DNA of 64,000 bases from Pseudomonas sp. GGS8 (GTDB taxonomy: Bacteria; Pseudomonadota; Gammaproteobacteria; Pseudomonadales; Pseudomonadaceae): positions 1,851,001-1,915,000 of the forward strand of contig NZ_JALJWF010000001.1 of the NCBI RefSeq assembly GCF_024168645.1, given 5' to 3'. Numbering within the stretch: the stretch's first letter is position 1; the number at the start of each line of letters is the position of its first letter. Under the pieces are notes generated by a model. The model was not told where the DNA came from and ran no database searches. It saw only the letters and a program-made list of their open reading frames with translations. Position numbers and translations under genes: made by a program. This document shows positions 19,733-49,107 of the stretch, one piece after another.

Positions 19733-19753
19733 GTTTGAAGGGGCAGCAGAGCA

Positions 19754-28410: not shown

Positions 28411-28417
28411 TTGGTTT

Positions 28418-28477: not shown

Positions 28478-28484
28478 GAGGTCT

Positions 28485-31687: not shown

Positions 31688-33144
31688 AAGGCGCCCAGAT
31701 TTTTGCGAGCTACACCAAACAGCCCATCCCTGAATACGCTGGCAACCCGCTGATCGAAGCATTGCCTCCGATCCTTACGGATACAGAAGCTGCGGAGTTG
31801 ATCTCGAATTTTCCTCAGCCAGTGGATCCCGAAGAACTCACCCTGGATGGGGCCATCCGGATTCACTGCATAGATCGTTTGAGAACAGTGGTGCAGCCCT
31901 TTTTGCTTCACCTGGATTTAGAGTCCATGTTCTCACTGCTCATCCGCCGGGGGTACGTGGGTCGTAATCCCACGTCACCTGATACCGTTAGGCATTTGCA
32001 TTCCTTGTCGGGAGCTCAGCGTTACCATGACGCTTTCAAGTCGACCGCTGAGACCTTCAGCGTGGTGGGTCTAAGCGGCATTGGTAAGTCGACAGCTCTG
32101 CACGCCATCTTGAGCCTTTATCCACAAACGATTCGTCATGAGCGTTATGAGGGTAAGCAATTCGTCCACACCCAAATCACTTGGCTTAAGCTCGACTGCC
32201 CCCGAGATGGTTCCTTGTCGGGATTTTGCCAGCAGTTCTTTTATGCCGTTGGAAATGCCCTGGGGGACAAGGACTATCACAAGCGTCACCGGCATCGGAA
32301 CATCAATGATGCGCTGCAGCAGATGGAGCAGGTCGCCAGCACATTTTTCATAGGTGCGTTGTTAATCGACGAGCTTCAGAACCTCCACCTGGCTAAAACC
32401 GGTGGCAAGGAGAGCATGCTGAACTTCTTCCTCAACCTGGTTAACAACATCGGAATTCCTGTCGTCTTCATCGGTACAAACTCGATGATCAGCTTGTTTT
32501 CGGATGTCATGCGCAACGCCCGTCGTTGCTGCGGCGTGGGCATGCTGGAGTTCAAACGTTTCGAAAAAGAAGATGACGAATGGAAGACGCTGGTCGAGAA
32601 CCTTTGGAGTTATCAGTGGTGCAAGCAGACGGCTGAACTGACTGGTGAGATTTTCGATGTGTTGTATGAGCACACCCAAGGTGTCACAGATTTTCTGGTC
32701 AAGCTGTTGGTGTTGAGTCAGCGTTATGCGGTTCAAAGTGGTTTGGAGTGTTTGACTGCCGAGATAATTGCAAAGGTGAGCAACTCCAAGATGCAGATCC
32801 TGAAGCCAGCACTGTCAGCCCTGCGCAGCCGAGATCCAAAGCGGATGCGGCAGTTCGACGACCTACTGCCGATCGAAGAGCAACTGAACGACATGATGGC
32901 GTTCGATGGACTGGTTCGAGCAGACCGCCTCGCCCTGCTTCGGAGTGTCGTATCGCGTGAACATCCGATAAACCTGACTCCAGCAGTCTCCACGAATAAA
33001 CCCCAGGCACCTGCTGCTGTTGCTGTAGAGTTCTCTGAGGCTAAAGCGCTGAGCGAACACGATTCTCCACTTGAAGCGTTAAGGGCCGCAGGTTGGATAA
33101 ATAACGATCTGTTTGAGTTTTCACCGACGTATCGCAAAAAGTGA
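31684..33144 (+). CDS. tnsC: Tn7-like AAA+ regulator TnsC
   Basis: A 486-residue AAA+ ATPase that bridges target selectors and the TnsAB transposase. Walker A is GLSGIGKST (about residues 129-137) and Walker B is GALLIDELQNLHLAK, followed by sensor 1 VFIGTNSM. A perfect DnaA box happens to lie at 32118-32126. It overlaps tnsB by four bases and is followed by the first tniQ gene after 15 bases. Confidence 0.93.
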   Translation: MKGAQIFASYTKQPIPEYAGNPLIEALPPILTDTEAAELISNFPQPVDPEELTLDGAIRIHCIDRLRTVVQPFLLHLDLESMFSLLIRRGYVGRNPTSPDTVRHLHSLSGAQRYHDAFKSTAETFSVVGLSGIGKSTALHAILSLYPQTIRHERYEGKQFVHTQITWLKLDCPRDGSLSGFCQQFFYAVGNALGDKDYHKRHRHRNINDALQQMEQVASTFFIGALLIDELQNLHLAKTGGKESMLNFFLNLVNNIGIPVVFIGTNSMISLFSDVMRNARRCCGVGMLEFKRFEKEDDEWKTLVENLWSYQWCKQTAELTGEIFDVLYEHTQGVTDFLVKLLVLSQRYAVQSGLECLTAEIIAKVSNSKMQILKPALSALRSRDPKRMRQFDDLLPIEEQLNDMMAFDGLVRADRLALLRSVVSREHPINLTPAVSTNKPQAPAAVAVEFSEAKALSEHDSPLEALRAAGWINNDLFEFSPTYRKK

Positions 33145-33159
33145 GTCGGAGGTGGTGAA

Positions 33160-34827
33160 ATGGATCTCAAATTCCATTTCTTCCCCACAGCATTTCCCGA
33201 CGAGACACTACACAGCGTGCTTTCTCGTTATGCACGCCTTTGCGGTGTTCGCAGCTTCAAAGCAGCTTTCGCCGGAGTAAGATCCCCAGCGGCTTTTTCG
33301 CAGAGTGTGGCTTTCCCAAGTCACTTGGACGATTTAGTCGATGCCCTTCCTTGCGGTACGGGCTTGTCGGTGGCCGAGGTCATCAAGCGTCACACGCTGT
33401 TGCCCTACTACGCCCCCTTTGTCAGCCAGGATCAAGTAGATCAGGCCCAGGCTTTGATGGCCGGCGATGGAACAGGGCTTATGCTCAAATTGGGAGTCAA
33501 TGCGAGTCGTCTCGAGTTCGCTTGCAGAACGCGTTTTTGCCCAGAATGCGTAGCCCAGGATCAGGTTCGAGTCGGAGTCGCCTATTGGCATAGGGTTCAC
33601 ACGCTCCCTGGCGTTCTGGTATGCCCCCATCACGGCACCTTGCTCAACGTCGTGGATCATCGCTGGTTCAGTCGCAATTCTCGGCAACTCAATCTGCCTG
33701 GCGATGACAGTGTGCAAGCACACTCGATACCGCTTCATGTCCCATCGATCTGTCTGCCGGCGCTACACGAAATAGCGCTGCGCTCACTACAGGTGCTCGG
33801 ATCTGAGGTCCGTGCTCTGTCGATCTCCAAAGTACGCTCCACGCTTCTGCAGGGGGCCGCCGAACACGACCTTACTTCCAAGTCCCGTCGCTTGCATCTA
33901 CGGCGCCTTGCGCAGCATATGGCTACATTTTGCCTAACACTTCCGAATGCCTGGGAATATTCGGTACTCAGCGAGACTCGTGAGGGTATCCCCGCCACAT
34001 GGGTCACTAAGCTACTGCGCAAGCCAAGAGACTCCCACCATCCTCTCAAGTACATCCTGTTGGCCAGCGCACTGAGGGTAAATATGGAGAACGTGCTGGG
34101 TAAAGGGACATTATGTGAGCCACAGACAGCGCCTCCTCTTACGGCTGTCACTCAACTCCCAAAGTGCGCTCCACCGATGTTTGCCATCGAGGGGCTGGAC
34201 TGTATATCGACGGCGGTGTGGGAACATGCGCTCGCGGGAGCCGATGCGAGAAAGATCGCTTCCGTACTAGGGGTTTCCCTGGTCCACGTCTACCGGACCA
34301 TCCGCGGCGTGGAAGGTGGGTCAGACGCCTGGAAAGAGGCAAGGTTTATCAGCCAGCTCCGCGAAAGACGAATGGTCTTCGATGCTGAGTATCGCTTGCA
34401 GAAGGCACATGACTGCCGGGGGTACGCTTGGCTGTACCGTTGCGATCGGCCTTGGCTGACAGAATGCATTGCGAAACGAGCTGCCGACCATGCAAACAGA
34501 GCGGATAGCGCTGACATGTTCGCCGCTCTCGATGTGAGACTTGCCAAGCAAGTTGGGCAATGTGCCCGAGCTCTTCGCTCTTTGCCGGGAAAACCTGTCC
34601 GGATCTCACGTACTAGGATAGGCCGAGAGCTTCATGTGCTCTCCCGTTTTGAAAAACAAATCTCCAAACTGCCCCTCTGTGCAGCAGCACTCATCGAGGC
34701 TTGTGAGTCCCTAGAAGAGTTTCACAATCGACGGCTGCGGTGGGCGAGGCAAAAGCTTCGCTCACAGGGAAAGCCCGTCACCCACTCGTCTCTCTACAGG
34801 GCTGCGAGCATCAGGCTCAGGACATAG
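33160..34827 (+). CDS. TniQ/TnsD-family target-selection protein, copy 1
   Basis: A 555-residue protein with a TniQ N-terminal domain (FHFFPTAFPDETLHSVLSRYARLCG) and zinc ligands C122, C127xxC130 and the later CPHHGTLL. A long C-terminal region resembles TnsD. Such proteins bind the attachment site and recruit TnsC. Its length fits TnsD, and its position directly after tnsC makes it a good candidate for glmS recognition. Which of the two copies reads glmS cannot be told from sequence alone. Confidence 0.9.
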   Translation: MDLKFHFFPTAFPDETLHSVLSRYARLCGVRSFKAAFAGVRSPAAFSQSVAFPSHLDDLVDALPCGTGLSVAEVIKRHTLLPYYAPFVSQDQVDQAQALMAGDGTGLMLKLGVNASRLEFACRTRFCPECVAQDQVRVGVAYWHRVHTLPGVLVCPHHGTLLNVVDHRWFSRNSRQLNLPGDDSVQAHSIPLHVPSICLPALHEIALRSLQVLGSEVRALSISKVRSTLLQGAAEHDLTSKSRRLHLRRLAQHMATFCLTLPNAWEYSVLSETREGIPATWVTKLLRKPRDSHHPLKYILLASALRVNMENVLGKGTLCEPQTAPPLTAVTQLPKCAPPMFAIEGLDCISTAVWEHALAGADARKIASVLGVSLVHVYRTIRGVEGGSDAWKEARFISQLRERRMVFDAEYRLQKAHDCRGYAWLYRCDRPWLTECIAKRAADHANRADSADMFAALDVRLAKQVGQCARALRSLPGKPVRISRTRIGRELHVLSRFEKQISKLPLCAAALIEACESLEEFHNRRLRWARQKLRSQGKPVTHSSLYRAASIRLRT

Positions 34828-35284
34828 TCAGGTGATGATCGGGCGCATCGCATGGGTCGCGATAGCGACGCACCGGGAGAGGCTAGCGGCCATGGTTACC
34901 TAAACGCCGGCGTGCTTCATAGAAGGACATGGCTTCGATCGTTGCTTGCGTTCATAGGGGCCAACGAAGGTCTGCCAGCTGCCGAGTAGTACACTGAGCT
35001 CGATTCCACGGGCGTAAGAGATACACCCTTCGAAAAAGTGGAAAACCTTTTGTGTAAGTAGCTCACTCCAAGCCGGCATATTTTTATTTATACGTGTTCT
35101 GTATCTAACTCAGGTGCATCACGGTTACCGACAAGAAAGTGTAAAGAGCATTAGCTAATTTACATTGCATTTTTGAAAGTTATTAAGAAAATCCTTGCTC
35201 AGGTACAGGTTGGTGTGTGTTAAAAAGGGTGCTGATCCTGGGATGTGTGTCCTTTCCGAGCCCCACTTTGTAAGTCGGTAACTG
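34828..35284. other. Spacer between the two tniQ genes
   Basis: This 457-base gap separates the two tniQ genes although the preceding tns genes overlap or nearly abut, so copy 2 probably has its own promoter. I see no terminator or repeat. The only candidate gene is the small leftward reading frame at 34900-35079. Confidence 0.5.
34900..35079 (-). CDS. Possible small protein or coding remnant (59 aa)
   Basis: An ATG at 35079 opens a 59-residue frame (MPAWSELLTQKVFHFFEGC, ending PSMKHAGV) with a balanced, protein-like composition including aromatic residues. No clear ribosome binding site precedes it and I do not recognise it. It could be a small regulator between the tniQ genes, a remnant, or chance. 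Confidence 0.25.
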   Translation of the reverse strand: MPAWSELLTQKVFHFFEGCISYARGIELSVLLGSWQTFVGPYERKQRSKPCPSMKHAGV

Positions 35285-36970
35285 ATGTCTGATCTACTTT
35301 TTTTCCCTATGTCGATGCCGGACGAGATGTTGCATTCTCGTATCACCCGCTATCACTATCTGTCAGGTAACAGAACCGAAGCAGAAACCTTTCATGATCT
35401 GTTCGACTCGACTCCATTTGGCGTCGGAATGCTTCCTAAACAGATCGAGGTACTCGCAGCGAAGCTGCCGGGGGATAGAGAGCGCAATCTCGACGAGCTC
35501 ATCAGCATCAACACTACTTTTCCAGCCTATCGGCCTTTTTTGGGTATGCGCGACGATACGGAAAAAGGAGCTGACGGGAGCGTTGTTTCTGAAGTGGCGC
35601 GTGTACCGCGTCGAGAAGTAACGGTTCACGGAAAGGCCAGGATCTGTCTCAGCTGCGTACAGCAGGATCTCTTGGAGCTTGGCTATGCCTACTGGCATCG
35701 GTCACACCATATGCCTGGTGTCATGGCCTGCTGGCGTCATGGCGAGCGGCTTATTCATTCCTGCCCAAAGTGCTCTCACCCATTCTATCGGAGATACAAA
35801 TTACTCCCGAGCTTAACCGAACAATGTGTATGCGGTTGGAGTCCGTTAAACGCTGCAGAAGGGACGAAGGCATCGGACGTTGAGATGAAGTTTGCAATTT
35901 TTGCGTATGAAGTTCTCCAACATAATCTTCCACCGGTATGCAGTAAAGTTCTTTACTCCTGCTTTGTTCGGCAGACTAGAAAACGTGGCTTCACTCATGG
36001 CGAACTAATCAGTACTACAAAGTTGATTGATAGCATTAGAGCTAAATTTGGGGATGAGGTTCTGTCGCAGATGGACAGGGCTTTTGACCAAGGGAAGCTT
36101 CAGACCTGGATTAGATTTAGGGTTTATAAAGGCCAGATCGATATGCCGTTAGCCCGCCATTTGATTATCGCGTTTCATCTGTTCGGCAGTGTCGAAAAGT
36201 TTGAATTGTCCTTGAGAAAAGAGTCAATTCTTTTTAGCGCCGCTAATTCTGGGATACCTTCAAAAGTTAAGCAGGGGCGGCCTAGTAAGAAGGATCAGCA
36301 TCGACAGAAAATAGAAATGCTTATAGCGCTGCGCGCGGACATTAACTTAGAACATCTCTGGGCGAATGCTTATCAAGCTACTCGATGGATTACAGAACAT
36401 GATAACTCATGGCTTATGGCGAAACTCCGCGCAGTGAAACACGAGCCTATATCGGCAGAGGAGGCTAGCGACCCACGAGATCCGTCATATGCTGACATCA
36501 TTCAAGCAAGTGTCGATGATTTGTATCGAGTTACGAAAGATCAGAAGCGTGTAAACATCGGCAATCTCCTGAAATTGCTTCCAATCCGCATGAACCCTAT
36601 ACCAGCAATTCGTAAACAGAAATTTCCTTTAGTCACTCAGATGGTTGAGCGTCATCTTGAGTCTGTCTGGCATTTTCGATTAAGGCGCCTGGTGTGGGCT
36701 ATTGCTGAAATGAGAAGGCTAAACCTTCCTTTGAACACTGGAAGTCTCAAGTTAGTCTCAACGGTACCTGCTCAAGTTTTCCCATTACTTTTCAGCTTCT
36801 TTGAGTGGGATCTGGAGCATTTCGTCAAAAACGGCATTGAGCCAGAGGCCTTGCTCAAGTCGACCGGCGTATCGCGGGCCTGGGAAGGCCCTCCCGGCTA
36901 CGATGTGATTTTGGGTGGACATGCATATCGTCGGAGGGGGCCCGGCGTCGAGATCTCGGGGCCGATGTGA
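35285..36970 (+). CDS. TniQ/TnsD-family target-selection protein, copy 2
   Basis: A 561-residue protein with the TniQ N-terminus (LLFFPMSMPDEMLHSRITRYHYLSG). It has zinc motifs C121xxC124, then CWRHGERLIHSCPKC and a downstream CVCGW, so probably two zinc sites where copy 1 shows one clear site. It is diverged from copy 1 over most of its length and visibly AT-richer. It may direct insertion to a second target or to mobile DNA, as TnsE does in Tn7, but that is inference. Confidence 0.88.
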   Translation: MSDLLFFPMSMPDEMLHSRITRYHYLSGNRTEAETFHDLFDSTPFGVGMLPKQIEVLAAKLPGDRERNLDELISINTTFPAYRPFLGMRDDTEKGADGSVVSEVARVPRREVTVHGKARICLSCVQQDLLELGYAYWHRSHHMPGVMACWRHGERLIHSCPKCSHPFYRRYKLLPSLTEQCVCGWSPLNAAEGTKASDVEMKFAIFAYEVLQHNLPPVCSKVLYSCFVRQTRKRGFTHGELISTTKLIDSIRAKFGDEVLSQMDRAFDQGKLQTWIRFRVYKGQIDMPLARHLIIAFHLFGSVEKFELSLRKESILFSAANSGIPSKVKQGRPSKKDQHRQKIEMLIALRADINLEHLWANAYQATRWITEHDNSWLMAKLRAVKHEPISAEEASDPRDPSYADIIQASVDDLYRVTKDQKRVNIGNLLKLLPIRMNPIPAIRKQKFPLVTQMVERHLESVWHFRLRRLVWAIAEMRRLNLPLNTGSLKLVSTVPAQVFPLLFSFFEWDLEHFVKNGIEPEALLKSTGVSRAWEGPPGYDVILGGHAYRRRGPGVEISGPM

Positions 36971-37246
36971 GACCAGGATAGTGAGGAATGCGCCGTCTGG
37001 CAGCGTATCGAGATTGCACTGCGGCGAGGCCATGGCTGACTGAGTCGCCCCTAGTTTCGCAGACACCTCCAAGCCTTCAATCCGATTTTTTTGCAGGAAA
37101 AATAGAAGCCAGCAATCCTATGTTGACTGGCTTCCGCATCAAGATCTCAGCGTTCGCACGATATCCCCTCTCTCAAAACTTACAGAAACCGGCGAGCCGC
37201 GCGGGGATTGCGAACCACAGCCTAACGAGTCGGTGAAGATCCAAGC
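36971..37246. other. Boundary between transposition genes and cargo
   Basis: This is a convergent gap between copy 2 of tniQ and the leftward GTPase operon. It contains an eight-base-stem hairpin (GAAGCCAG at 37105-37112 with CTGGCTTC at 37127-37134) without a T run. Nothing else is recognised. Confidence 0.4.
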
Positions 37247-39271
37247 TTACTTTATATTAAAATCGATATATTCGGCTCTGGCTTTTAGCTTCCGCTCCTC
37301 AGTGAGCTTGAGCGCGTCGTAAACTCGTTTGAGATAGGCTTTGCCTTTCTTAGAGTGCGCGGCCTCATCAATCAAAGAAATCTCAAGAGGATTCTCATCG
37401 GTTAGTCGACCAAATATTTCTGGCTCGAGATTATGCTCGATGAACCGTTTCGCTACCGTCTCTCTCAGGCGCGAACAGCTGTCCCAGTCGAGCCATGAAC
37501 CGCGCCCTAGCCGCCAGTTCGCGAGTTTCTCCGTATCTCGTGAAAATAGTTGGTCTTGGAAGCCCTTGTATACCGTGGTATAGGAATACTGAAGCAACTC
37601 GGCTTGTGATCGAGATTTATAGCCCAAGGCTCGACTCAAGAAAAACGCAGCGAGAAAGTTTTCGTCTGATCGATTTATAGGACCTGAAGCGCTTCGCAAT
37701 GCGATCAGCCAAGGGTCTTCTCCGTAACTGTTAGGTACATCGTCAGGGGACGAGTGTCTGGCGATTGTGACAATCGTCGCCATGCGCCGCACCTCACCAG
37801 TGGCTAAGACTGTGGCAAGCATATTATGGTCTCGGCATAAAGCAGCTAGCCATGCCCGGACAGCTTCAGGATCAGCGTTTTCCGACTCGAGCGCGCGAAT
37901 TAGCTCTTTTGCATCTGCCTTATTGATTATAGTTATTGCTGGCCCGATTCTAGCTGCGCAGAGCATAGCTTTTGCTGCCTCACCTGCGTATTCAGGTGAA
38001 ACGAGTTCTGCCAATTCATCGTCAATACCAGGGTTCTTCCAAAAGGTTGGGAGCAACATGATATCTGGGCGCCGTTCCGCAATTTCTCTCACAACGCTGG
38101 GCTCGAGCCCTGAGATAATTTGCTCGGGTTTCATTTCTGCTAGAGCGTTGGAAGCAACACTAGATAACACGCCTTCTGATACGAGTGCAGAGTGGAAACG
38201 ATTCGGTGAGCGGCGCCAAAGCTCCATGCCAAGGTAGCTACCGATTTCCAGCTGTTCTTCAGCATCGTTGGACTGTTCCAACATTTCGAGAAGAAACTCG
38301 AATACGGCATCATCTACTCTGCCAGTAGTTCGCTTTATAGCTTGGTAGGCCACAAGTTTGCGAATGGACCGGGCCTGCTTTCTCCCGCCATTATCGATGG
38401 CCGACAACGCCGAAACAGCAGTCACCAGATCTGGCGGATGACGTTCCAACAGGCTTTCGTATAGCGAACATAACGGCAACATAGCGCGTCGTCCGCCATC
38501 AACGTCGCCCCCGATGCGTTTAAGGAACTCACGTAGGGTCGACGCAGATGGAGTCGCTAAATCAGCTAACAAAGGCATCACAGCCTCCGAGGCGGCAAGC
38601 TCATCCACCACGATAGCGTTCGGAAATTTCGACCGGAGCTGACGATCTGCCTCCGGCACGAACTGTAGGTCAAGAACGATTCCCTTGCCGGATCGATCCA
38701 TTCCTGAAAGCGTGCAGAAGCCAAACGAACGGCGCAGTCTTGGCCATTGCTGCATCCAGAGGTTTGTCACTACCTGTTCGTCTGCGACAGGGTCGGTGGC
38801 TTCTATGACCACCTGATGTGTCGGATTCGAATACAGAGCATGAAAAATTGATGCAATGCGCTCGGTTGGGTCGATTCCGATTGGTGTTGAACTTGCCGTA
38901 ACAGCAATCGGTTCCACAAAGCGAGACTTTAATTCTTTATCTATGGGACGTCTGAATGTTTCCAGTAGAGGCTTTACGGAAATCAGCCTAGCAAGGTCAG
39001 CATTTTCGATGATTAGCGAGTGAGTCCAGACGCAGCCAGGGCGAGGCATTTCTGGTGCTGACCACGTTCTCGCGAGAACGTATTTTCCGCTTTTTTCGAG
39101 AGGATACCCCGTCAGATAACCACCAGTGGGCGGCTTTAGGCCCGGCCCCGATAGGTCACTCATAACTAGCATAATGCGGGCATCCGACATATCTATCGGA
39201 AGTGAGCTGGAAATAAGTCTGTGACCGTCGCTATAGCCGTGCAGCGCTTGATGGACAAGAATTGTGGACAT
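37247..39271 (-). CDS. GTPase-associated protein 1 (GAP1-N1 type)
   Basis: A 674-residue protein whose first ~110 residues match the GAP1-N1 pattern: VHQALHGYSDGHRLI, LSDLSGPG, GYLTGYPL, YVLARTW, APEMPRPGCVWTHSL. The remainder is helical, corresponding to the middle and C-terminal GAP1 regions. The family is known only as a companion of TRAFAC GTPases in predicted conflict systems, with no biochemical role established to my knowledge. I used the ATG at 39271, which overlaps the upstream stop as TAATG; an ATG at 39286 would add five residues. It is last in the five-gene operon. Confidence 0.85.
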   Translation of the reverse strand: MSTILVHQALHGYSDGHRLISSSLPIDMSDARIMLVMSDLSGPGLKPPTGGYLTGYPLEKSGKYVLARTWSAPEMPRPGCVWTHSLIIENADLARLISVKPLLETFRRPIDKELKSRFVEPIAVTASSTPIGIDPTERIASIFHALYSNPTHQVVIEATDPVADEQVVTNLWMQQWPRLRRSFGFCTLSGMDRSGKGIVLDLQFVPEADRQLRSKFPNAIVVDELAASEAVMPLLADLATPSASTLREFLKRIGGDVDGGRRAMLPLCSLYESLLERHPPDLVTAVSALSAIDNGGRKQARSIRKLVAYQAIKRTTGRVDDAVFEFLLEMLEQSNDAEEQLEIGSYLGMELWRRSPNRFHSALVSEGVLSSVASNALAEMKPEQIISGLEPSVVREIAERRPDIMLLPTFWKNPGIDDELAELVSPEYAGEAAKAMLCAARIGPAITIINKADAKELIRALESENADPEAVRAWLAALCRDHNMLATVLATGEVRRMATIVTIARHSSPDDVPNSYGEDPWLIALRSASGPINRSDENFLAAFFLSRALGYKSRSQAELLQYSYTTVYKGFQDQLFSRDTEKLANWRLGRGSWLDWDSCSRLRETVAKRFIEHNLEPEIFGRLTDENPLEISLIDEAAHSKKGKAYLKRVYDALKLTEERKLKARAEYIDFNIK

Positions 39272-40134
39272 TATTTCATCAGCCATTCTAGTGGCTTAGT
39301 TATATCCGAAGTGACAGTGCTGTCGTCTACGACTTTAATCCGATCGGATGCTCGTTCCAAGTCTCGAAGCTTATCGGTTTCGGGGAAGTTATCATCCTTT
39401 TCCGGATCCTCATAAACACCTCCCTGCGCACTTAGCCCCCACACCTGCCAAATCCAAGGGTCGCGGCTGCTGCGTAAGTACTGGCTTAATAGAGGCAATT
39501 TACTATCAAGAATCTCAGCCGGCGTCAGTTCTTCTCCTTCGACCCTGTCCCATGCTGAGATGAGCAGGGCCAAACGTCTCTCGCCAATATCTAGTTCTCC
39601 AGACATCAGCATCTGCAGGAGATCCACGATCCGTACCTGAGTCGGCGCAAGATCTGCACTCCACTCCACTGGCTCCGTCTTATGGGCTGCGGCCCCCATC
39701 TGCTTCCGCAACGTATTCCACTCAGCGAGCCAAGCCGGCATCTTAATCGTATCGCCGTTGATGATAAGTACGAGCGCCGGTGCTCTAAGCGTTACCAGTG
39801 TCCCCTTGTCCAAATCCCGACGCTCCCACATCCGCGAGAAGTCTTCGCCTGGTAGGTCCGGAAATGACACCTCAACTTTCTGACCACCACCATTTTTCAG
39901 CTGCATTGATACATCCTTTGCACCGCTCAGTTGAGTCCGTTGCTGGATGTTTCCGGCTCGCCAACGCTTGGCTAGGTTGTTAAGGTGCTCGTAGTTGCCA
40001 TTGCTGAGACGATCGAAAGATAGTGCCGTTTTGGACCCGGCCTCACGGACCATGTGCCACAGAGCTGCAAGAAACGTCGTCTTGCCTGACCCGGGCAATC
40101 CCACGATAGAAATGTGAATTTCTCCGTCCATCAC
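39271..40134 (-). CDS. TRAFAC-type GTPase with SAWD motif (double-GTPase 2 type)
   Basis: A 287-residue P-loop GTPase: Walker A GLPGSGKTT at residues 12-20, the G3-like FPDLPGEDF, and SAWDRV in place of the usual NKxD base-recognition motif, then GLSAQGG as G5. Such proteins are usually encoded beside a second, different GTPase, as here. It overlaps the upstream GTPase gene by four bases and touches the downstream GAP1 gene, so a joint complex is likely. Nucleotide preference is inferred. Confidence 0.85.
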   Translation of the reverse strand: MMDGEIHISIVGLPGSGKTTFLAALWHMVREAGSKTALSFDRLSNGNYEHLNNLAKRWRAGNIQQRTQLSGAKDVSMQLKNGGGQKVEVSFPDLPGEDFSRMWERRDLDKGTLVTLRAPALVLIINGDTIKMPAWLAEWNTLRKQMGAAAHKTEPVEWSADLAPTQVRIVDLLQMLMSGELDIGERRLALLISAWDRVEGEELTPAEILDSKLPLLSQYLRSSRDPWIWQVWGLSAQGGVYEDPEKDDNFPETDKLRDLERASDRIKVVDDSTVTSDITKPLEWLMK

Positions 40135-41153
40135 TCATCCCCCGTATCGGTCAGGCGGTCAATCATACGTTCGAAGACTGGGCGTGAACCTTTGACTATC
40201 TCAACTATAGGTTTGTTCGGTTGCAACCAGTATGACAACAGGTCGGCGACTCCATCTCCCCGCTCGATTTGCGTGCAATCCCTTGGCGATGCAGCAACCG
40301 CGAATGAGTCCACTCCGCCCAGGTACGTGGCGTGATCATCTCTGATCGAGGCTACCAAACTTTCGAAATCTTTTAGCACCCGTGTTGGATCCCCAGACAC
40401 GACCACTGAATCCCTTTTGGTCAAAACGATCGCTAGCCGACATCCTTCACGAATCGCCCGCGCTTCGACCAAGGCGTCGACGATTTGGTGTGCGATGGCT
40501 TTCACTTCATGCCGTTGCTTGGGCTCAGCTAATTGAGCGCCATTCACTAGAAGAGTTATGCAATCCGCTCGCCTTATCTCGAAGAACTCATCGGCCTGAG
40601 AAATCTGGTCTGTGACCGACAGGTAGTCCTCACCTGAGCGGTCGCTTATGAACAAGGAAATCAGCCCTAAATCTCCTTGATGCAGATCAAGGTGAAAAAA
40701 CGTTGCATCTGCGCCGCGGATTGTTCGCTCTGTATGCGGAATGTCCCGTCGGGATACCACCCGAGCAAGGTGGCACACCTTCTCAAAGCCGATAAGGGTA
40801 GAGGAGCCTGCAAAAGCTGCTCCTGAGAGGGGGGCCGTCTGTAGGAGATCGAAGACGCCGGCGATTAAGCTAGTCTTCCCCGAGTCGGCGGGTCCTATGA
40901 GGCTGACCGACCTCGAAATGTAACGGCGCTGCAAGTCTGAAGCGTCTTCGCGACGGAGCGTTTCACCGGACGACAGCGCGATTGTTGACTCTGATGGTTT
41001 AGATGGGGCCTCTGTGTCGTCAGCTTCTGGGATATCATCAATGGATAAGATCCCGGCATGAGGGCACTCTCCGACCTCGTACCCTTCCACGCATTTTCCA
41101 TCAGACGCAAAATTACAATCGGCATTTTTACATGCAAGCTGCTGAGTCCCCAT
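40131..41153 (-). CDS. Zn-ribbon-fused TRAFAC-type GTPase (double-GTPase 1 type)
   Basis: A 340-residue protein. The N-terminus carries a cysteine cluster (C8, C13, C21, C30, H32) that looks like a small zinc-binding module, then an acidic linker. The GTPase domain follows with P-loop GPADSGKTSLIAG (about 87-99), G3-like SDRSGEDY and G4 TKRD. The zinc module may be a sensor or partner-docking element. It overlaps the next GTPase gene by four bases and follows the helical gene after four bases. Confidence 0.85.
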   Translation of the reverse strand: MGTQQLACKNADCNFASDGKCVEGYEVGECPHAGILSIDDIPEADDTEAPSKPSESTIALSSGETLRREDASDLQRRYISRSVSLIGPADSGKTSLIAGVFDLLQTAPLSGAAFAGSSTLIGFEKVCHLARVVSRRDIPHTERTIRGADATFFHLDLHQGDLGLISLFISDRSGEDYLSVTDQISQADEFFEIRRADCITLLVNGAQLAEPKQRHEVKAIAHQIVDALVEARAIREGCRLAIVLTKRDSVVVSGDPTRVLKDFESLVASIRDDHATYLGGVDSFAVAASPRDCTQIERGDGVADLLSYWLQPNKPIVEIVKGSRPVFERMIDRLTDTGDE

Positions 41154-41157
41154 TTGA

Positions 41158-42258
41158 TCAATCGCCTACGTGGAGGAAGAGATGCTCACGATAGAAAAGC
41201 TCAGCGAGCTTAGCAGCTGGCATTGAAGCCTCAGATGGCAATCCGGTCATGGTGGCCCACATCTGAAGCCACGCATCATCGAAGCCCATATCGACCCTTT
41301 TCTCTAGAGCGAAATGCAGAGGAGTTGTCACGGGAGAAATCCTCGCACACTTCGTGATCTCAGTGATCCAGTCAGCATCAGCGGCGTTCACTGCTTCAGA
41401 TACCTTGATGCTGGTGGCGGTGACTCCTGCTCGGGTCAGAAGCGATCTTACCGATGCGGGCCCAGGCGATATACTGGTCAATGCACCCAACTCGTTACCC
41501 AAGATCAACGGTTTGAGTGCGGCGTCGATGTCACTAAACGACTTGCCGAGCGTGCCGCTGTGGTCACCGATCAACCACCACAGCATCTGGAGCTCCTCTT
41601 CGCCTAGCCAGACTTGGCGTAAAAGACTGTTCGTTACATGGTTTGAGCCCTTGACGATTTCCCCCAAGGCGTCTTGGGCAGCATCTCGAAGCTGGTTAAG
41701 CTCGCTTTGCCAGAGTGTTGGCGACATCTCAGCTAGTGCCTCTTGCGAGACCTCGAATTTTACTGTTGCCGGTTTGATTTCGAAGTCCTCGGCAGTTGGG
41801 CGCTCGTGCTTTGTCCGGGACAGTTCGGCTAAGGCTCTTCGGGCACGTTCAACGAGGTCCATGGGCAAATCAGGGGTACGCGCTCCCTCGAAGGAAGCGT
41901 TGAGTACCGCGATCGCAGCGTCAGGCATTCTGTTAAGCAAAAGTGAAAGCACGGCGGCTGACAGGAGTTGCAACTCTCTTCGGCAGTCCTTCGGATCAAT
42001 GGTCGAGCCGTTTCCTGACAGAGAGGTAAGTAGGGCCTGATGCTGCTTGTTTAGGGCTTCGACTTTGCCGCCGCTCGCAGCCGCCACAGTCGCAAAAGCG
42101 TAACGGACTAGGACCTCTACGGTATCGACATCTGCGACCGTGGCGGTGTTGATCACGCCTTTCCACCTACGCCCGATGATTTCGCTGTCGTTCATAAACG
42201 CGTCCGCATACCAGCCCGCGAACTCAGCACTCACCTCAGGGACTTTTGTCATGCTCAA
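41158..42258 (-). CDS. GTPase-associated system helical (GASH-type) protein
   Basis: A 366-residue, largely alpha-helical protein with no catalytic motif I can see. The N-terminus (SAEFAGWYADAFMNDSE) and the second half (LWQSELNQLRDAAQDALGE, EEELQMLWWLIGDHS) resemble the GASH family found in GTPase-centred conflict operons; this assignment is from pattern memory and context. It probably serves as a scaffold or adaptor. It overlaps the phosphoesterase gene by four bases. Confidence 0.75.
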   Translation of the reverse strand: MSMTKVPEVSAEFAGWYADAFMNDSEIIGRRWKGVINTATVADVDTVEVLVRYAFATVAAASGGKVEALNKQHQALLTSLSGNGSTIDPKDCRRELQLLSAAVLSLLLNRMPDAAIAVLNASFEGARTPDLPMDLVERARRALAELSRTKHERPTAEDFEIKPATVKFEVSQEALAEMSPTLWQSELNQLRDAAQDALGEIVKGSNHVTNSLLRQVWLGEEELQMLWWLIGDHSGTLGKSFSDIDAALKPLILGNELGALTSISPGPASVRSLLTRAGVTATSIKVSEAVNAADADWITEITKCARISPVTTPLHFALEKRVDMGFDDAWLQMWATMTGLPSEASMPAAKLAELFYREHLFLHVGD

Positions 42259-43565
42259 TTCTCCAGTTTGGCGACTTCAGCCGCGATCTTGTCCATGATG
42301 TCCAACTGTGCTGCGCGGATCAGGGCTCGCCCATATCGCTCCGGCTCAGGGAGCTTCATCTCGCCCGGCTCAAGTAGGTTCAGTGAGACTGCAATTTGTC
42401 GCCGCTGACTACTTGAAAGGCTCCAGAATCGGTAGAGCAAGTCCCGGGTATCTTCCTCACCCATGGTCGCCTCCGCGTCTTGAATTGACTGTGATTCGGA
42501 CAAGTGATCCTGCAATTTAGTGGCTGGAGTCTCTGCCGTCACAGTGTCACAACTGGAACCGCGAAGATCGCCTTCTTCTGGGATCGATATAGAGGAAGCG
42601 AAGTAATCTTTACGCTGAGGACTCTGCATAGCGATGAACATTTCAGGAACATCTTGCAGCCGGCGCTGATAAACCCGAACATCAACGCGTCGCTCCTCTC
42701 CAGCGCCGGCAACCTTCAGCTGAATCAGATTGTATCCCGGGTTGTAAGGCTGCTCGCGACGGGACGGGTTCACCGCGGCTGCTGCGAGGCGTACATAGCT
42801 TGCATCCATATGCAGTCGTTGTTTGTGCTTATGGCCAAAGACTTGAAAGGCGGCGCGAGTATTTAACGCATCCTCGACAACCTCGCCATCCTCAAGCCAG
42901 TCAATAGGGTGGTGGCATAGAACCATGTTCAGTGTGTTTGGTGCAGGATTGAGCACGGTTTGTAGCGGGCTAAGGTAAAGCCCCCGTTCCTTGTCATCCT
43001 GCCCTTCACGACCGGACAGTAGTGTAGATGTCAGCCCATAGATCCTAAGGCTCACACCGGCGTCGAGAACGATGTCTTGATGCCAAAATGGTTTGGATGG
43101 CCATATTTGGCACATAAAACGAGCGGCAAAAGCGTTGTATGCGGCGTGAGCTTCGAGCAAGAGCTGACCGCTAGCGGCGTCGCCAAGTTGCTGTCTTAGT
43201 TTCCATTCGCGATCCTGAAGTGAAGCAGAGGAAATCGCATGCTGCACGTTCTGAATTGGGACGCTTGCCTTGATAACCGCTCGATCCACGTCGTGGTTGC
43301 CCGGTACTACAAAAATGCGCTCCTTAGGGCAGCCGGAGATGTCCGCTAACTGCTCTATCCAGACCTGAGCTGTCTGGTATTCAGCTGGGGCCGCCCGGTA
43401 GGCGATGTCACCCCCAATCAGAATCGCGCCCACTTTACCTAGCGTTTTAACTTGTTCCTGAAGATCACGCATCATACGTGTGCGTATCGAGTAGTCAGGA
43501 TCCATCTCTGGTTGGAGGCATTCTGGTGACTTGAAATGGATGTCAGATATGTGCAGCATCAACAT
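42255..43565 (-). CDS. Calcineurin-like phosphoesterase with C-terminal adaptor-like domain
   Basis: A 436-residue metallophosphatase. Metal ligands are visible in order: SDIHF (D8, H10), GGDIAYR, GNHD, CHHP and FGHKHKQ. After about residue 300 there is a linker, and the last ~60 residues (LLYRFWSLSSSQRRQIAVSL onward) form a small helical domain of the kind named GTPase-associated adaptor domain. It is first in the operon and could be the effector that cleaves a nucleotide or nucleic acid. I chose the ATG at 43565 (GAGGG nine bases upstream) over a GTG at 43604. Confidence 0.87.
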   Translation of the reverse strand: MLMLHISDIHFKSPECLQPEMDPDYSIRTRMMRDLQEQVKTLGKVGAILIGGDIAYRAAPAEYQTAQVWIEQLADISGCPKERIFVVPGNHDVDRAVIKASVPIQNVQHAISSASLQDREWKLRQQLGDAASGQLLLEAHAAYNAFAARFMCQIWPSKPFWHQDIVLDAGVSLRIYGLTSTLLSGREGQDDKERGLYLSPLQTVLNPAPNTLNMVLCHHPIDWLEDGEVVEDALNTRAAFQVFGHKHKQRLHMDASYVRLAAAAVNPSRREQPYNPGYNLIQLKVAGAGEERRVDVRVYQRRLQDVPEMFIAMQSPQRKDYFASSISIPEEGDLRGSSCDTVTAETPATKLQDHLSESQSIQDAEATMGEEDTRDLLYRFWSLSSSQRRQIAVSLNLLEPGEMKLPEPERYGRALIRAAQLDIMDKIAAEVAKLEN

Positions 43566-43604
43566 GAACGCTATCCCTCGCCGCGACTGGCTCGACCCGG
43601 CCAC

Positions 43605-43918
43605 GTGCCAATAAATTATGTGTGAAAGAGCCTAGGCGGGACTAACTACCTAGGCCTACCAGGCAGTCGCCTAGGGTGTGATGTTTCCAACTGCACAACT
43701 CTTCACAAACAGCCGTTGAATTCGCCTCATTCCTTTGTCTCACAGATGCAGATCCTAACTACTCCAAGCAGGCACCGAAACTGAGCCTGAGGGGGGAAGC
43801 AATTCTACACAATCCCTAACTGACGACTACGGTCGCATCTACATCAGCCGCTAAGGATGTTCAGGAATTGCATCAAAGGATGTGCAGCAACGCATTAGTT
43901 AAGCTCGCCGGTTAGGGG
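43605..43918. promoter_or_regulatory. Promoter region of the GTPase operon with three CCTAGG palindromes
   Basis: The 314-base gap upstream of the phosphoesterase gene contains CCTAGG at 43631-43636, 43649-43654 and 43670-43675. They lie 18 and 21 bases apart, about two DNA turns, a plausible operator array for the leftward operon. The rest of the gap (43676-43918) shows nothing I recognise, and no clear terminator for the upstream protease gene. Confidence 0.45.
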
Positions 43919-46198
43919 CTACAGACGGATTGGTACTCGTACTGGAAGTGGCGTGTTGATCCAGTTGCACTGGCTCAAAGCCCTTAGGCCTGCGGCCCGC
44001 ACTTGTGGATCTCCTTCGAGCGATCGCAAGGTCACGATGATGCTCACCGGCAAAGCTTCAGTAAGGTCTGGCTCGTACGCTCGAAGCCGAGCTTTTGCCT
44101 GCAACCCCCACTGTTTTCCGGCTGCTCCGTTTGTGAAGCTTTTGCGATGTACTTTTACTGGTGACCATTTGCTGCCAGAGGATATTTGGGCGATTTCATA
44201 TCCGCTTTGACCTTCCTCGCTGTCCATCGGAACCATGCCTTTGATGGTATCGCCGGTAATCACACCGAAGCTCAATTCGACGTTTGCGCGCACGTACTCA
44301 CTACCTGCGTTTGGGTCGAGAGGCGGTGCATAGGCCGCTGTTATGATGATCTCTCCTCGGAATTTTCCGTCCTGAATCAGCACATCAGGGATTGGGTAAG
44401 GCGTCTTTCGCCATCGCATGTTCCCTGGCACCAGGTTGGCCTGAAATACCAACGTGAAGCTGTCATCAGAATCGTAGAGCGCCTTTAGGACATCATCAGG
44501 TCGGCCGGCACCCAGGTAGCGCCGGTGGAAGGAGTCGTAGTCAGGCGAAGAGAGTTGCGCAGCATGAATCATCAGCGCCTTCACCAAGGATGGCGAAGGG
44601 TTGAGCGTCGGCCTACCAACGAGTGCCTGCCAGGCATGAGCTGCCATGCTCGATGCGAGTGGAGCAGCGTAGCTCGTACCAAATCCGTAATGCAGCCTAT
44701 CGTCAGGCCCAAGAACCTTGAGGCTGGCCAAGCCAGCATTCCAAGGAGCATGAACACCACCGCCCACGTGGGTAATATCCGGTTTGGGGGTGAATACCGG
44801 ACCTGGGCCACACCGCGAGTAGGGCGCAGGATGGCCAGCACCACTGAGAGCGTCAGCTGCATCGATGTGCGCGATCGATCCAACAGTCAGAGCACGTACA
44901 GACTCCCCAGGGCAGGAAATTCGGTCGTCAAGAGTCGACGGAGTCTGCCATTGCCGACGTGGTAGGTCGTTGTAGTTGCCGGCCGCTACTACGAATAGAA
45001 CTTGGTACTTGTCGCTCAGCTCATCCAGGGTCATGGCGAAATCGCTGAAGAGACTTTCGTCGCAGGACTCACCCCCTATAGAGATGTTCCATATCTTTAC
45101 ATCTGGGCGGCGCTGGACGGCAGCTCGAAGTCGTAGCTCCAGATCACTCATATGTGAGCCGGAGATCTCCAGCGCACAGACATCGTGGATCTGGGCAGGC
45201 GTTGTTGGCAGCCAAGCATGCTTGTCGTTGAAGTGAGCCCCGCCAGCGATGAGCGAGGCGACAGCTGTTCCGTGTTCGAAGTTCGTGTCAGGAGGCAGGA
45301 CATAGGTGTCCCGGGTTTTGACGTAGTGCTCGATAAGCTTTGCGTCTGTACTGACCCCAGTATCGAAGACCGCTACGGTCGGTAAGCCGATTGACTGTTC
45401 TGTCGGTTGGGCCTGGCTCGCAGAGGTCCCGCTTTGGGGTTTCAGTACTGTGTTTCGTGGACGGAATACCTGCTCTGCGTAGATCGACCGGATGCCGGGA
45501 AAGTCCAGAATCATGTCCAAGGAATCGCCTTGAATCTTGTCGAGATCCTGAATACCGATGATTGGAAGGCCACGACCTTGGGCGATTTCGACGAATGGCA
45601 ACGACAGTGATTTCAACGTGCGTAGCACTGTCTCGTAGTTGAAGGTGTTAAGACTGTCATGCTGATACTGGAATAGTCTCAGTACTGCTCGCCCATGATC
45701 GAGCAATTGCTTGCTCCCCGCGGGATTTCTCCGTTGACGATCCCACGGTTGGATTGCTTCGATTGCACTCAAATTACAACGGATCTTCTTGGTGTTGCGC
45801 TGAAGGATGACGCGACTCAATGCGCTCAGGCTGTGTGCTGATGCGCCGACAAGCATTTCATCGATTCGCGCGTGGCCGGCCGGCTCTAGGCTTGCTTCTT
45901 CCGCAAGCACAGTGGGTCTATGGCTTTTCGCAATCCCTTTTTCACGCAGTTTGAGTACGAGGTGAGTTAACGCTTGAGGATGCAGCACCTGCTCGTGGGC
46001 AAGTACCAAATGGGCGTCTGTGAGATTTTTGGAAAGCGCCTGCCGGTAGGCGGCATCGACTACTACGAGCTCTTTGCCACCTCCGCCAGGATTGCCTTCA
46101 ATAGAGGAAAGATCCTTAGGCTGAAACGGGATGTGTAAAAAAGGATTCTCAACCCTAGCATTCAATGGCTGCTGTGCGGGTGTGTTCTTGCGGGCCAC
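43919..46198 (-). CDS. S8 (subtilisin-type) serine protease
   Basis: A 759-residue protease without a signal peptide, hence probably cytoplasmic. The triad is D279 (VAVFDTGV), H309 (FEHGTAVASLIAGG) and S509 (GFGTSYAAPLASSMAA), with oxyanion N408 (AAGNYND). The N-terminal ~270 residues could be a propeptide or sensor region and the C-terminal ~200 a beta-rich domain. It overlaps the upstream AAA+ gene by 44 bases, so the two are one unit. Pairs of AAA+ ATPase and subtilase are recurrent in bacterial defence islands; the target is unknown. Confidence 0.88.
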   Translation of the reverse strand: MARKNTPAQQPLNARVENPFLHIPFQPKDLSSIEGNPGGGGKELVVVDAAYRQALSKNLTDAHLVLAHEQVLHPQALTHLVLKLREKGIAKSHRPTVLAEEASLEPAGHARIDEMLVGASAHSLSALSRVILQRNTKKIRCNLSAIEAIQPWDRQRRNPAGSKQLLDHGRAVLRLFQYQHDSLNTFNYETVLRTLKSLSLPFVEIAQGRGLPIIGIQDLDKIQGDSLDMILDFPGIRSIYAEQVFRPRNTVLKPQSGTSASQAQPTEQSIGLPTVAVFDTGVSTDAKLIEHYVKTRDTYVLPPDTNFEHGTAVASLIAGGAHFNDKHAWLPTTPAQIHDVCALEISGSHMSDLELRLRAAVQRRPDVKIWNISIGGESCDESLFSDFAMTLDELSDKYQVLFVVAAGNYNDLPRRQWQTPSTLDDRISCPGESVRALTVGSIAHIDAADALSGAGHPAPYSRCGPGPVFTPKPDITHVGGGVHAPWNAGLASLKVLGPDDRLHYGFGTSYAAPLASSMAAHAWQALVGRPTLNPSPSLVKALMIHAAQLSSPDYDSFHRRYLGAGRPDDVLKALYDSDDSFTLVFQANLVPGNMRWRKTPYPIPDVLIQDGKFRGEIIITAAYAPPLDPNAGSEYVRANVELSFGVITGDTIKGMVPMDSEEGQSGYEIAQISSGSKWSPVKVHRKSFTNGAAGKQWGLQAKARLRAYEPDLTEALPVSIIVTLRSLEGDPQVRAAGLRALSQCNWINTPLPVRVPIRL

Positions 46199-47327
46199 TA
46201 CCGATCTCCTCCTTGAGGATCTTTGTTATTTGCCTAGTCGATAGGTCGTACAGCCTCCCTAGGGTTCTCAGGGAGAAGTACCTTGGCGCCCATCCATTAA
46301 GCCACCTAATTTCTGACTCAACAGTAGATAGCACTCGGCCACTTGTCAGCGCAAGATTTAATCCCAGCCGGCGAAATAGCTGGTCCTCGTCGATCCCGGA
46401 CTTATTTGATAAAACTGCCGCTCGTTTTGTATCAAGGCATACCTGCTCAATGTTTGCGCCGGTTATCCCTACCGATAAGTGAGCGAGGTCGTCGAGATTC
46501 AAAGTCTCGCAGCTGAATGGTTCCAGATACTGTCTCCAGAGTAATTTGCGCAACGCCAGATCTGGTTCGGCCATCGGGATACGGAAACTGAAGCGACGCC
46601 ATATCGCGGGATCCAACAGCTGATCATGGTTGGTAGCGGCGACAAGAATCGTGCTTTCTGGCACTGCGTCGATGTTCTGCAGCAGGGCAATGACCACTCG
46701 CTGCAGCTCACCAACATCCCTCTCATTGCCGCGGGCGCCGGCCAATGCATCGAACTCATCTAGGAACAGTATGCAGGGCCTCTGCTGAGAGTATTCGAAC
46801 ACCCGTCGTAGGTTGCGGCTGGTCTGCCCCAGAAGGCTACTCACCAGGGTGTCGCAGCGTACAGTCAGCAGCGGCAGCTCGAGATTCGCGGCAATGTAGC
46901 GAGCGAGCCTGGTCTTCCCTGTGCCAGGAGGGCCGTAAGTCAGCAAACGGCTAGCCATGGCTGCGCCTACTCGAGCTAGCTCGTCGAACCTGCGGATGTT
47001 TGCCAAGAATTCCTGTACTCGACTCTCTACAGCGCTGGGCAGTAGGAGGGACTCTTTATCGATCGCCGGATTACTCACATCGACCGTGTGCAGATGACTT
47101 TCACCATCGGTGGGTAGGTTTGAGAAGCTGAAACCATGTGCTGCATCTTGAGCGCTGGCAAGCGCCGCCGGAGCCCTGGCAAGTCGCTCTCTGATCATGC
47201 GGGCCTGCTTTTTGTCGCCATCGCTCTCCAGCTTGTCTGCCAAAAGGCCCGCATAGTTCGAGGCCATGCTGGCATTAGCCTTGAGAGCTCCGTCTAGGAT
47301 CTTCAAGATTTCGGAGAGGTATTCCAC
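46155..47327 (-). CDS. AAA+ ATPase paired with S8 protease
   Basis: A 390-residue classic AAA ATPase. Walker A is GPPGTGKT (132-139), Walker B CILFLDEFDAL (about 186-193), and the second region of homology ATNHDQLLDPAIWRRF carries two arginine fingers. The N-terminal ~90 residues are helical and may bind substrate. It starts the two-gene leftward unit with the S8 protease and may deliver or unfold substrate for it, or gate its activation. Confidence 0.9.
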   Translation of the reverse strand: MEYLSEILKILDGALKANASMASNYAGLLADKLESDGDKKQARMIRERLARAPAALASAQDAAHGFSFSNLPTDGESHLHTVDVSNPAIDKESLLLPSAVESRVQEFLANIRRFDELARVGAAMASRLLTYGPPGTGKTRLARYIAANLELPLLTVRCDTLVSSLLGQTSRNLRRVFEYSQQRPCILFLDEFDALAGARGNERDVGELQRVVIALLQNIDAVPESTILVAATNHDQLLDPAIWRRFSFRIPMAEPDLALRKLLWRQYLEPFSCETLNLDDLAHLSVGITGANIEQVCLDTKRAAVLSNKSGIDEDQLFRRLGLNLALTSGRVLSTVESEIRWLNGWAPRYFSLRTLGRLYDLSTRQITKILKEEIGSGPQEHTRTAAIEC

Positions 47328-47591
47328 GGAATGATTCGCTCAAATGGTTAACTGTTTCGGATTTCGGCGTGAGTGTAGCGTATTAATCTGAAATCGTTTC
47401 GCTTTCATCGGCTCCTGATTCACTATGGCGTGTAGCCACCTCGGAAGTCCGTATGATGGAGACCGTATGGTGTGAGCTCGTGCGAACATTTTGGCGCTAC
47501 GTTGGTGTCGTGGTCTTTGAGTGCTGATCAACGAGGCCAGCCCAATTGCTGACTACGATAATCATCGGGTTACCAGTTTGATGGGGTGGGT
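47328..47591. promoter_or_regulatory. Divergent region between AAA+/protease pair and Abi gene
   Basis: The 264-base gap lies between divergent starts and must carry both promoters. I could not identify specific promoter boxes or repeats. Confidence 0.35.
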
Positions 47592-48851
47592 ATGGAGCAA
47601 AAAGAGCAAATTGAGCCGCTTTTGGCGACAGTGCATGCACTTCTGCGGGCTGACGGGGCTGACGATGCAGCTGATGTGGTACGTGACTATCCCGCCATGG
47701 CGGAGCTTTCGGGACAGGACAATTGGAATGGTGGAACTCAGTATTGGGACATCGTGTTCAGAGTGCCAACATTGGACTACGTCCGCCTAGGTGCAAAACG
47801 GAGCCTGCTAGAAGAGCAGATCACTGCTGGACTCAAGGCTGTCACCGAGCATGAGCCATTTGATTACTATTCTGCCGCGATCGTCCTCGACAAAGAATTT
47901 CGAGCGGATTGGCGATCTGGTACGTCGGAACTGCCGAAAAGGGTACGTCAAAACATCCTCGATGGCCTCCGGCTAGACGACGTGAAGTGGTATGGCCGGT
48001 TGAACGATGTTGAATTTTTGAGCCGACTTTATGAGCTTGAGAAGTTGCCAACCACAGACCACCGCTATAAGGACGCTGCAGGCGATATCTGGCAGCATCG
48101 ATTGAACAACGATGATTGGGAGAACGATTGGGTTTACAACGACAGTCGCTTTCAGCTTGTGGATGGCGGTGCAGAGCTGTTTCTGCGTTTCTTGTGTGAA
48201 ATGGTTCATCCTCTGGTGCGTCCCGACCGTGATGAAGCGCTTAACCTCGTGGTACAGCTCAACGACCAACTCAAGGGTGCCGGATGGGAGTTGTACGAAG
48301 AAGAGTTGATAGCTGGTCGTCCTCGCTTTGCTTTCCGAACGATTGAGAACAACTCTGCCCGGTCCGTTGTGCGAGCGAAGGCTGTTGCGGAAGCGCTGAA
48401 CGCTGGATGGATGGCAAAGCAGATCGAGCGTCTAGAGCACGCCATAGATAGCGACCCAGAATTGGCTATAGGTACAGCTAAGGAGTTGGTGGAGACCTGC
48501 TGCAAGTCCATTCTCACTAAATGTGAAATCACCTTCACCAAGTCAGACGACCTGGGCGACTTGACCAAGAAAGTCGCGAAGGCGCTTAAACTGGTGCCGG
48601 AGGGAGTTAGCGACGCAGCGAAGGGGGCTGAAAATATTCGGTTGATTCTGCGCAACCTAACCAGCATCACGAGTAACTTGGCACAGTTGAGAGGTCTGTA
48701 TGGCACTGGGCACGGAAAGGATGGCCAGCACCGCGGACTTCAGCCGAGGCACGCTCGTCTTGCAGTTGCCTCGGCGGTGGCCTTCATCGATTTTGTGTCC
48801 GAGACACATCGGTACAGAGAGGAATCGCAGAATTTCGAGCAGGCCGACTAG
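47592..48851 (+). CDS. Abortive infection protein, AbiJ-like
   Basis: A 419-residue protein. Residues about 130-215 (FLSRLYELEKLPTTDHRYKD, GDIWQHRLNNDDWENDWV, FLRFLCEMVHPLVR) resemble an AbiJ N-terminal domain. Residues about 275-405 resemble the Abi C-terminal HEPN-type domain, with the R-x6-H-like LRGLYGTGHGKDG that could be an RNase site. It likely acts in phage exclusion by halting the host cell. I chose the ATG at 47592 (MEQKEQIEP); a GTG two codons earlier is also possible. It transcribes toward the distal transposon end. Confidence 0.82.
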   Translation: MEQKEQIEPLLATVHALLRADGADDAADVVRDYPAMAELSGQDNWNGGTQYWDIVFRVPTLDYVRLGAKRSLLEEQITAGLKAVTEHEPFDYYSAAIVLDKEFRADWRSGTSELPKRVRQNILDGLRLDDVKWYGRLNDVEFLSRLYELEKLPTTDHRYKDAAGDIWQHRLNNDDWENDWVYNDSRFQLVDGGAELFLRFLCEMVHPLVRPDRDEALNLVVQLNDQLKGAGWELYEEELIAGRPRFAFRTIENNSARSVVRAKAVAEALNAGWMAKQIERLEHAIDSDPELAIGTAKELVETCCKSILTKCEITFTKSDDLGDLTKKVAKALKLVPEGVSDAAKGAENIRLILRNLTSITSNLAQLRGLYGTGHGKDGQHRGLQPRHARLAVASAVAFIDFVSETHRYREESQNFEQAD

Positions 48852-48953
48852 AACAAGAATCCTTCGGCTCACTTGGCTGAGAAAACACTCCTGGCCTCTG
48901 TTAGCCCTCGGTATCACTGCCGCTGGTCTGTCTGGTAGTCGCGCATGATGGTT

Positions 48954-49105: not shown

Positions 49106-49107
49106 AT

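Follow-up and report, generated by a model that had tools for sequence, protein, structure and literature searches.

The closest described relatives of the locus reported here are the GAP1-N1 systems, which the section of Kaur et al. 2020 (PMC7159879) devoted to them predicts to be conflict systems and names GTPase-centric subsystem 1. It is described there as made of five parts: GAP1-N1, GASH, a pair of DO-GTPases, one of them with a zinc ribbon, and a variable effector fused to GAP1, EAD1 or GAAD. The same section lists a calcineurin-type domain as the commonest effector and assigns GAAD the role of an adaptor. GAP1 stands there for "GTPase-associated protein", and a reading of GAP1 as a proven GTPase-activating protein was therefore rejected. 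In a 64,000-nucleotide stretch of the Pseudomonas sp. GGS8 genome (contig NZ_JALJWF010000001.1, positions 1,851,001 to 1,915,000; hereafter the window), five open reading frames (ORFs) on the - strand at 37247-43604 carry all of these parts, with the effector coupled as a phosphoesterase-GAAD fusion, and all five look intact. Judged from its genes, this operon is a predicted double-GTPase conflict system of GAP1-N1 type and a real, apparently intact and mobile member of the predicted family. In order of transcription it consists of the following genes (aa, amino acids; pLDDT, predicted local distance difference test).

42255..43604, - strand: effector, a calcineurin-like phosphoesterase (residues 16-261) with a C-terminal GAAD adaptor (residues 386-444); Pfam Metallophos 42.0 bits, GAAD 59.1
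41158..42258, - strand: GASH all-helical protein, 366 aa; PF19994 59.4 bits, cut-off 27; model pLDDT 94.4
40131..41153, - strand: DO-GTPase2 with an N-terminal Cys-rich (zinc-ribbon-like) segment, 340 aa; PF19993 171.9 bits
39271..40134, - strand: DO-GTPase1 with SAWD at the guanine-motif position, 287 aa; PF19975 232.4 bits
37247..39286, - strand: GAP1-N1 protein, 679 aa; PF20012 108.3 bits, cut-off 27; model pLDDT 93.4

The initial annotation, made from the sequence alone, had named five leftward genes and their families, and these names are correct, as all named operon domains score over the curated Pfam cut-offs in a hidden Markov model search. It had also described overlaps of 1-4 bases. 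The measured spacing, in order, is a 4-nucleotide (nt) overlap, a 4-nt gap, a 4-nt overlap and a 16-nt overlap, and the last of these shrinks to 1 nt, fitting that description, with the second ATG of GAP1 (39271) as the start. The first gene is present as claimed, but the start given for it, 43565, is an internal ATG at residue 14 of a 449-aa ORF that opens with GTG at 43604. Only weak matches, for the phosphoesterase, GAAD and GASH, were found in PHROGs, and scans of the sequence for sigma-70 promoters (4 found, 6.5 expected) and terminators (10 found, 8.4 expected) were uninformative.

As a prediction the gene set has been published before, and its anatomy is already known. It had been placed among families predicted to form GTP-dependent conflict systems, in agreement with Kaur et al. 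(PMC7159879), whose section on the GAP1-N1 system holds the same set and from which no excluding difference was found. What is new here, and goes beyond the description in that section, is the carriage on a Tn7-like element and on a phage, the boundary at which effectors are exchanged, and a possible DENN likeness of GAP1; a patatin effector, found in one locus, also lies outside the effector list given there. In line with the initial annotation, which knew of no experimental account of this gene set, searches of an open-access library gave none for the GAP1-N1 system, a scope that excludes subscription papers and bioRxiv preprints outside PMC and within which some papers were judged by the title or the start of the abstract.

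The reading that we consider probable, if with some reserve, is that of a GAP1-N1 double-GTPase system carried as Tn7-like cargo and acting through GTP-gated abortive infection. The two GTPases would pair as a GTP-dependent heterodimer that GAP1, with GASH, would hold or read; the front half of GAP1, if longin-DENN-like, would regulate this dimer and its solenoid would scaffold it, and the effector would be tethered via GAAD. A phage cue would shift the nucleotide state, upon which the phosphoesterase would be freed or ordered, and its attack on nucleotides or nucleic acid would halt the infected cell. A GTPase switch held by GASH/GAP1 was rejected as a shown fact, since it rests on inference, and is kept here as a proposal.

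Conservation of the core and of its catalytic motifs

When 84,980 species genomes were scanned with a profile, possibly without the records of the window's own genome, 96 stretches matched, 68 of which encode a relative. Gene order was counted with iterated profiles in these 68 loci plus the window. GTPase2, GTPase1 and GAP1 lie on one strand and in one fixed order in 69/69 loci (68/68 without the window), and GASH precedes them in 68/69 (67/68), the exception, L045, being a 4.5-kb contig. This recurrence shows the operon to be more than a chance arrangement. The initial annotation had proposed that its reading would fall if the five genes did not occur together in other genomes, and the core order was kept in every further locus. 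Because the loci were picked through GTPase1, co-occurrence is conditional on that gene, which means that GTPase1 does not travel alone, with no claim that a GTPase1 accompanies every GASH or GAP1. According to the record titles, the hosts include alpha-, beta-, gamma- and deltaproteobacteria, Acidobacteria, Chloroflexi, Planctomycetes, Verrucomicrobia, Bacteroidetes, a Lachnospiraceae bacterium and Nocardioides. Frames are broken in two loci (L070, L080) and the effector is split in two others (L049, L058). Presence is patchy, as GTPase1 matches 9/398 sampled genomes of the phylum at E <= 0.001, with 4 over the cut-off, and GASH matches 3/148 genomes of the family (own genome counted in each case); no other genome of the same genus was among the matches.

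Alignments, numbered by the longest ORF of each gene and with short ORFs excluded, show intact GTP-binding motifs in both GTPases and an intact two-metal site in the phosphoesterase. G17-K18, D93, G96-E97, S193 and S235-A236 are invariant among 67 GTPase1 sequences, and R66 and T67 (66/67), W195 (65/67) and D196 (66/67) are nearly so. Among 68 GTPase2 sequences, G92-K93, T144, G174-E175, K246 and D248 are invariant, and R143 (63/68) and D171 (67/68) are nearly so. The usual NKxD is replaced by S-A-W-D in GTPase1 and mostly by T-K-x-D in GTPase2, so that SAWD, which had been noted for the window protein, is a trait of the GTPase1 family. The label of a Zn-ribbon GTPase is likewise supported by four Cys ahead of the P-loop in the window GTPase2, a predicted zinc ribbon whose Cys/His pattern is present in 53/68 GTPase2 sequences. 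Both DO-GTPases have a conserved Walker B Glu (E97, 67/67; E175, 68/68), a switch-II DxxGE that lacks the usual Gln and, in the putative switch I, an Arg-Thr pair. The last two features suggest that hydrolysis by GTPase1 and GTPase2 is partner-assisted. In the phosphoesterase, metal-site residues D21, H23, D66, N103, H104, D105, H231 and H260 are kept in 55/55 sequences, window included, and H258, the ninth position checked, in 53/55.

The SRP54/FtsY pair offers a comparison, as it too consists of two related GTPases and the GTPase1 profile has a weak match to SRP54 (E 3.2e-5). However, the window pair stands in a conflict-system context and its heterodimer is only inferred, and the Pfam scan gave no domain specific to the signal recognition particle apart from a weak match to the SRP54 GTPase domain.

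Mobile carriage of the operon and its relatives

The operon lies within a Tn7-like element inserted just downstream of a glmS-like gene. This transposon and the neighbouring IetAS and AbiJ-like genes do not figure in the initial annotation. The features are as follows.

28412..49102: Tn7-like element carrying the operon, 20,691 bp (from ends, repeats and empty sites)
28407..28411: ACAAT target-site duplication, left copy (read by eye, checked)
49103..49107: ACAAT target-site duplication, right copy (read by eye, checked)
28421..28477, + strand: three TnsB-binding-site-like repeats, left end (pattern search)
48954..49093, - strand: three TnsB-binding-site-like repeats, right end (pattern search)
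28668..29522, + strand: TnsA-like endonuclease (PF08722)
29519..31687, + strand: TnsB-like transposase (Mu-transpos_C and gene order)
31684..33144, + strand: TnsC-like ATPase (AAA_22, TniB)
33160..34827, + strand: TnsD-like target selector (TnsD and TniQ domains)
35285..36970, + strand: second TniQ-family protein (PF06527)
26554..28386, + strand: glmS-like target gene, outside the element (SIS and glutamine amidotransferase domains)
43919..46198, - strand: IetS, S8 peptidase of the IetAS defence system (NF042956, 1090.8 bits, cut-off 900)
46155..47327, - strand: IetA, AAA ATPase of the IetAS defence system (NF042959, 564.1 bits, cut-off 510)
47586..48851, + strand: AbiJ-like protein (AbiJ_NTD3 and Abi_C) at the right end of the cargo (PF18860, PF14355)

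With Tn7-like transposons at attTn7 the element shares the tnsABCD order, a site just downstream of a glmS-like gene (it starts 26 nt past the last base of the glmS stop), a 5-bp duplication and repeated end sites; it differs in its defence cargo and in the second TniQ-family gene, possibly a second target selector. The TnsB-site-like repeats gave 6 matches in the window (<=2 mismatches) against 0.37 expected by chance, a ratio that flatters them because the pattern was written from the same six sites. The outermost end segments are 26 nt each and start with TGG, with ACAAT at both flanks. Their register was picked by eye, and it is supported by the right end found in a relative (L085, genome G533), likewise a 26-nt segment starting TGG. 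In that relative, end sites resembling those of the window element lie on the lysR side of the corresponding site, and no Tns or glmS match (E <= 1e-5) came from the 40 kb upstream. In all, 19 loci (L085-L103) were fetched from relatives via the flanking lysR, and in six of them (L089, L090, L092-L095) glmS is followed directly by lysR, as in an empty site; some of the other 13 may be lysR paralogues. Among the 68 other operon loci, L050 alone has relatives of the window TnsB, TnsC and TnsD within the DNA covered, a count in which more distant Tns proteins would be missed. IetA and IetS, both above the NCBIfam cut-offs, are adjacent, upstream of the operon and on its strand, 314 nt from the longest phosphoesterase ORF. 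The window copy would be a convenient test case, being compact, with five genes that look intact, a bounded mobile element around it and two further defence-type loci adjoining.

Carriage is not confined to this element. GTPase1 relatives occur on 23/72,556 plasmid records, 16 of them predicted to be conjugative, and pAOF1, the one plasmid inspected closely, has abhydrolase-GAAD, GASH, GTPase2, GTPase1 and GAP1. A single phage record of 50,697, Leptospira phage vb_LkmZ_Bejolso9-LE1, carries at 13374-19959 GASH, GTPase2, GTPase1, GAP1 with an EAD1 tail and then a phosphorylase effector, with an integrase gene beside this GAP1-type system; among viral contigs, 600 stretches matched a pattern and none was confirmed. 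It could be argued from the Tn7-like, plasmid and phage carriage that the parts and the switch are as proposed and that the main role is competition among mobile elements, such as plasmids and other transposons, instead of defence against lytic phage. This is unlikely, as the neighbours on the same element, IetAS and the AbiJ-like gene, are named anti-phage in libraries, although the two roles are mutually compatible.

The flanks of the other loci are weak evidence in the same area, agreeing with defence or mobile islands. The 124 nearest ORFs of 67/68 other loci (120-1199 aa, <=3 kb away) matched 89 PADLOC families (E <= 1e-10), a number that overstates since parallel models such as PtuA may match one protein; SoFic, PtuA, AbiEii, LmuB, HmaC and Dsr1 were among the matches listed. 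The 118 ORFs of a control set, taken from 20 stretches chosen by hand and unmatched in phylum, length and number per genome, gave 12 families (mad2, mad3, mad8, three RtcR models, two PDC-M37B models, DolB, QatD, AriA and IetA). On the flanks of the operon loci, Pfam, for which there was no control, gave four phage integrases, three Fic proteins and single relaxase, TraG and Mob genes, plus housekeeping genes.

The effector slot and the GAAD boundary

In 55/69 loci, four of them (L064, L070, L079, L082) without a match to the GAAD profile, the gene ahead of GASH encodes a phosphoesterase; 11/69 have another protein in this slot, and 3/69 (L039, L045, L046) have no recognisable effector. The other proteins include an alpha/beta-hydrolase (L029), PNP (L051) and SEFIR/TIR (L075). 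In L016 (5630-7877) a patatin-like gene lies directly before a stand-alone GAAD ORF with an 8-nt overlap, which is either a split effector or a frame break. The L076 effector is tentatively called caspase-like, from a motif and a weak match (Raptor_N 0.079). A recurring GAAD protein type with an unassigned N-terminal domain is found in Acidobacteria and Verrucomicrobia records (L042, L043, L044, L080), where the GNAT-like label is weak, with a GNAT match at E 0.075 in L042 alone, none in L044, and L043 and L080 scanned to E 0.05 only. Two Chloroflexi GAAD proteins (L054 7273-7965, L055 437-1342) have an N-terminal part that matched no Pfam family at E 10 and 0.05, respectively.

A quick GTPase1 tree with 67 rows, of which 63 carried an effector label (L016 unlabelled; L070 and L080 omitted for short GTPase1 ORFs), requires at least 7 effector changes, with some long branches poorly placed. 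One change can be located. L029 groups at short distance with L083, L023 and L028, and its DNA matches theirs at 70-71% (L028 71%) from locus position 7666 to 12896-12905, with no further match above the threshold. The match starts at codon 336 of the effector, 8 codons ahead of GAAD, and ends just short of the GAP1 end; at the protein level the effector match begins at residue 318 or 325. The enzyme has thus been exchanged and adaptor and core kept, which supports the adaptor role that Kaur et al. give to GAAD and, on this sequence evidence, makes GAAD a modular tail. The closest core relative of the window operon in the set is L016 (GTPase1 63%, GAP1 47%), which carries patatin, while the window phosphoesterase is closest to L018 and L031. 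GAAD occurs once in the whole of the window's own genome, within the operon; an EAD1 search of this genome gave no match, but no control matched either. The exchange at the GAAD boundary opens a direct experiment on enzyme versus adaptor. Together with the conserved GTPase motifs, this exchange fits the model proposed in the initial annotation, in which two unlike GTPases would release the phosphoesterase.

The nature of the enzyme bears on a second alternative, namely that the phosphoesterase makes or destroys a signal nucleotide controlling something else and is not a toxin. Its nearest solved relatives by sequence, matched weakly, are the phosphohydrolases 2dxl (E 0.0073), which we take to be GpdQ, and Rv0805 (E 0.055), which would suit such a role. 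However, the patatin, alpha/beta-hydrolase, SEFIR/TIR and PNP proteins of the same slot suit direct damage better, and a separate signal receiver is not obvious in the window operon. Enzymes of these kinds are known to be host-damaging in other abortive systems. Even with the prediction of a nucleotidyl phosphodiesterase in the relevant section of Kaur et al. (PMC7159879), we consider a signalling enzyme quite unlikely. Immunity, as preferred here, gains indirect support from the Tn7-like, plasmid and phage carriage, the defence neighbours, and the constant core with its changing effectors. A stress or housekeeping regulator outside any conflict, as might be suggested by the common use of GTPases as regulators, the lack so far of a defence phenotype and, in part of PMC11237479, a DO-GTPase-family protein beside Psp genes predicted to serve in membrane-related stress, is very unlikely in view of the patchy presence of GTPase1 and GASH, the mobile carriage and the effector turnover.

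A possible longin-DENN fold in GAP1

The model of GAP1 has an N-terminal alpha/beta part that may resemble longin-DENN, followed by a helical solenoid. From this model it is conceivable, if doubtful, that the first 264 residues form a two-lobed longin-DENN-type regulator of the GTPase heterodimer, either an exchange factor or a GTPase-activating protein, and that the armadillo/HEAT-like solenoid serves as a scaffold for GASH and the GAAD-tagged killer. When 57 GAP1 N-terminal parts were compared with Pfam, 9 families were matched and neither DENN nor longin was among them, and a PDB profile search with GAP1 gave no DENN chain. The comparison for the front half is with the longin-DENN GTPase regulators of eukaryotes, such as DENND1A/B; FLCN-FNIP is a further regulator of this kind. 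The architecture was discussed for eukaryotes by a 2012 DENN survey (PMC3521125), in the part that bears on it. If GAP1 has this fold, a eukaryotic GTPase-regulator architecture would gain a bacterial, immunity-linked counterpart, and a bacterial immune switch would share its regulator architecture with eukaryotic Rab and Rag GTPases.

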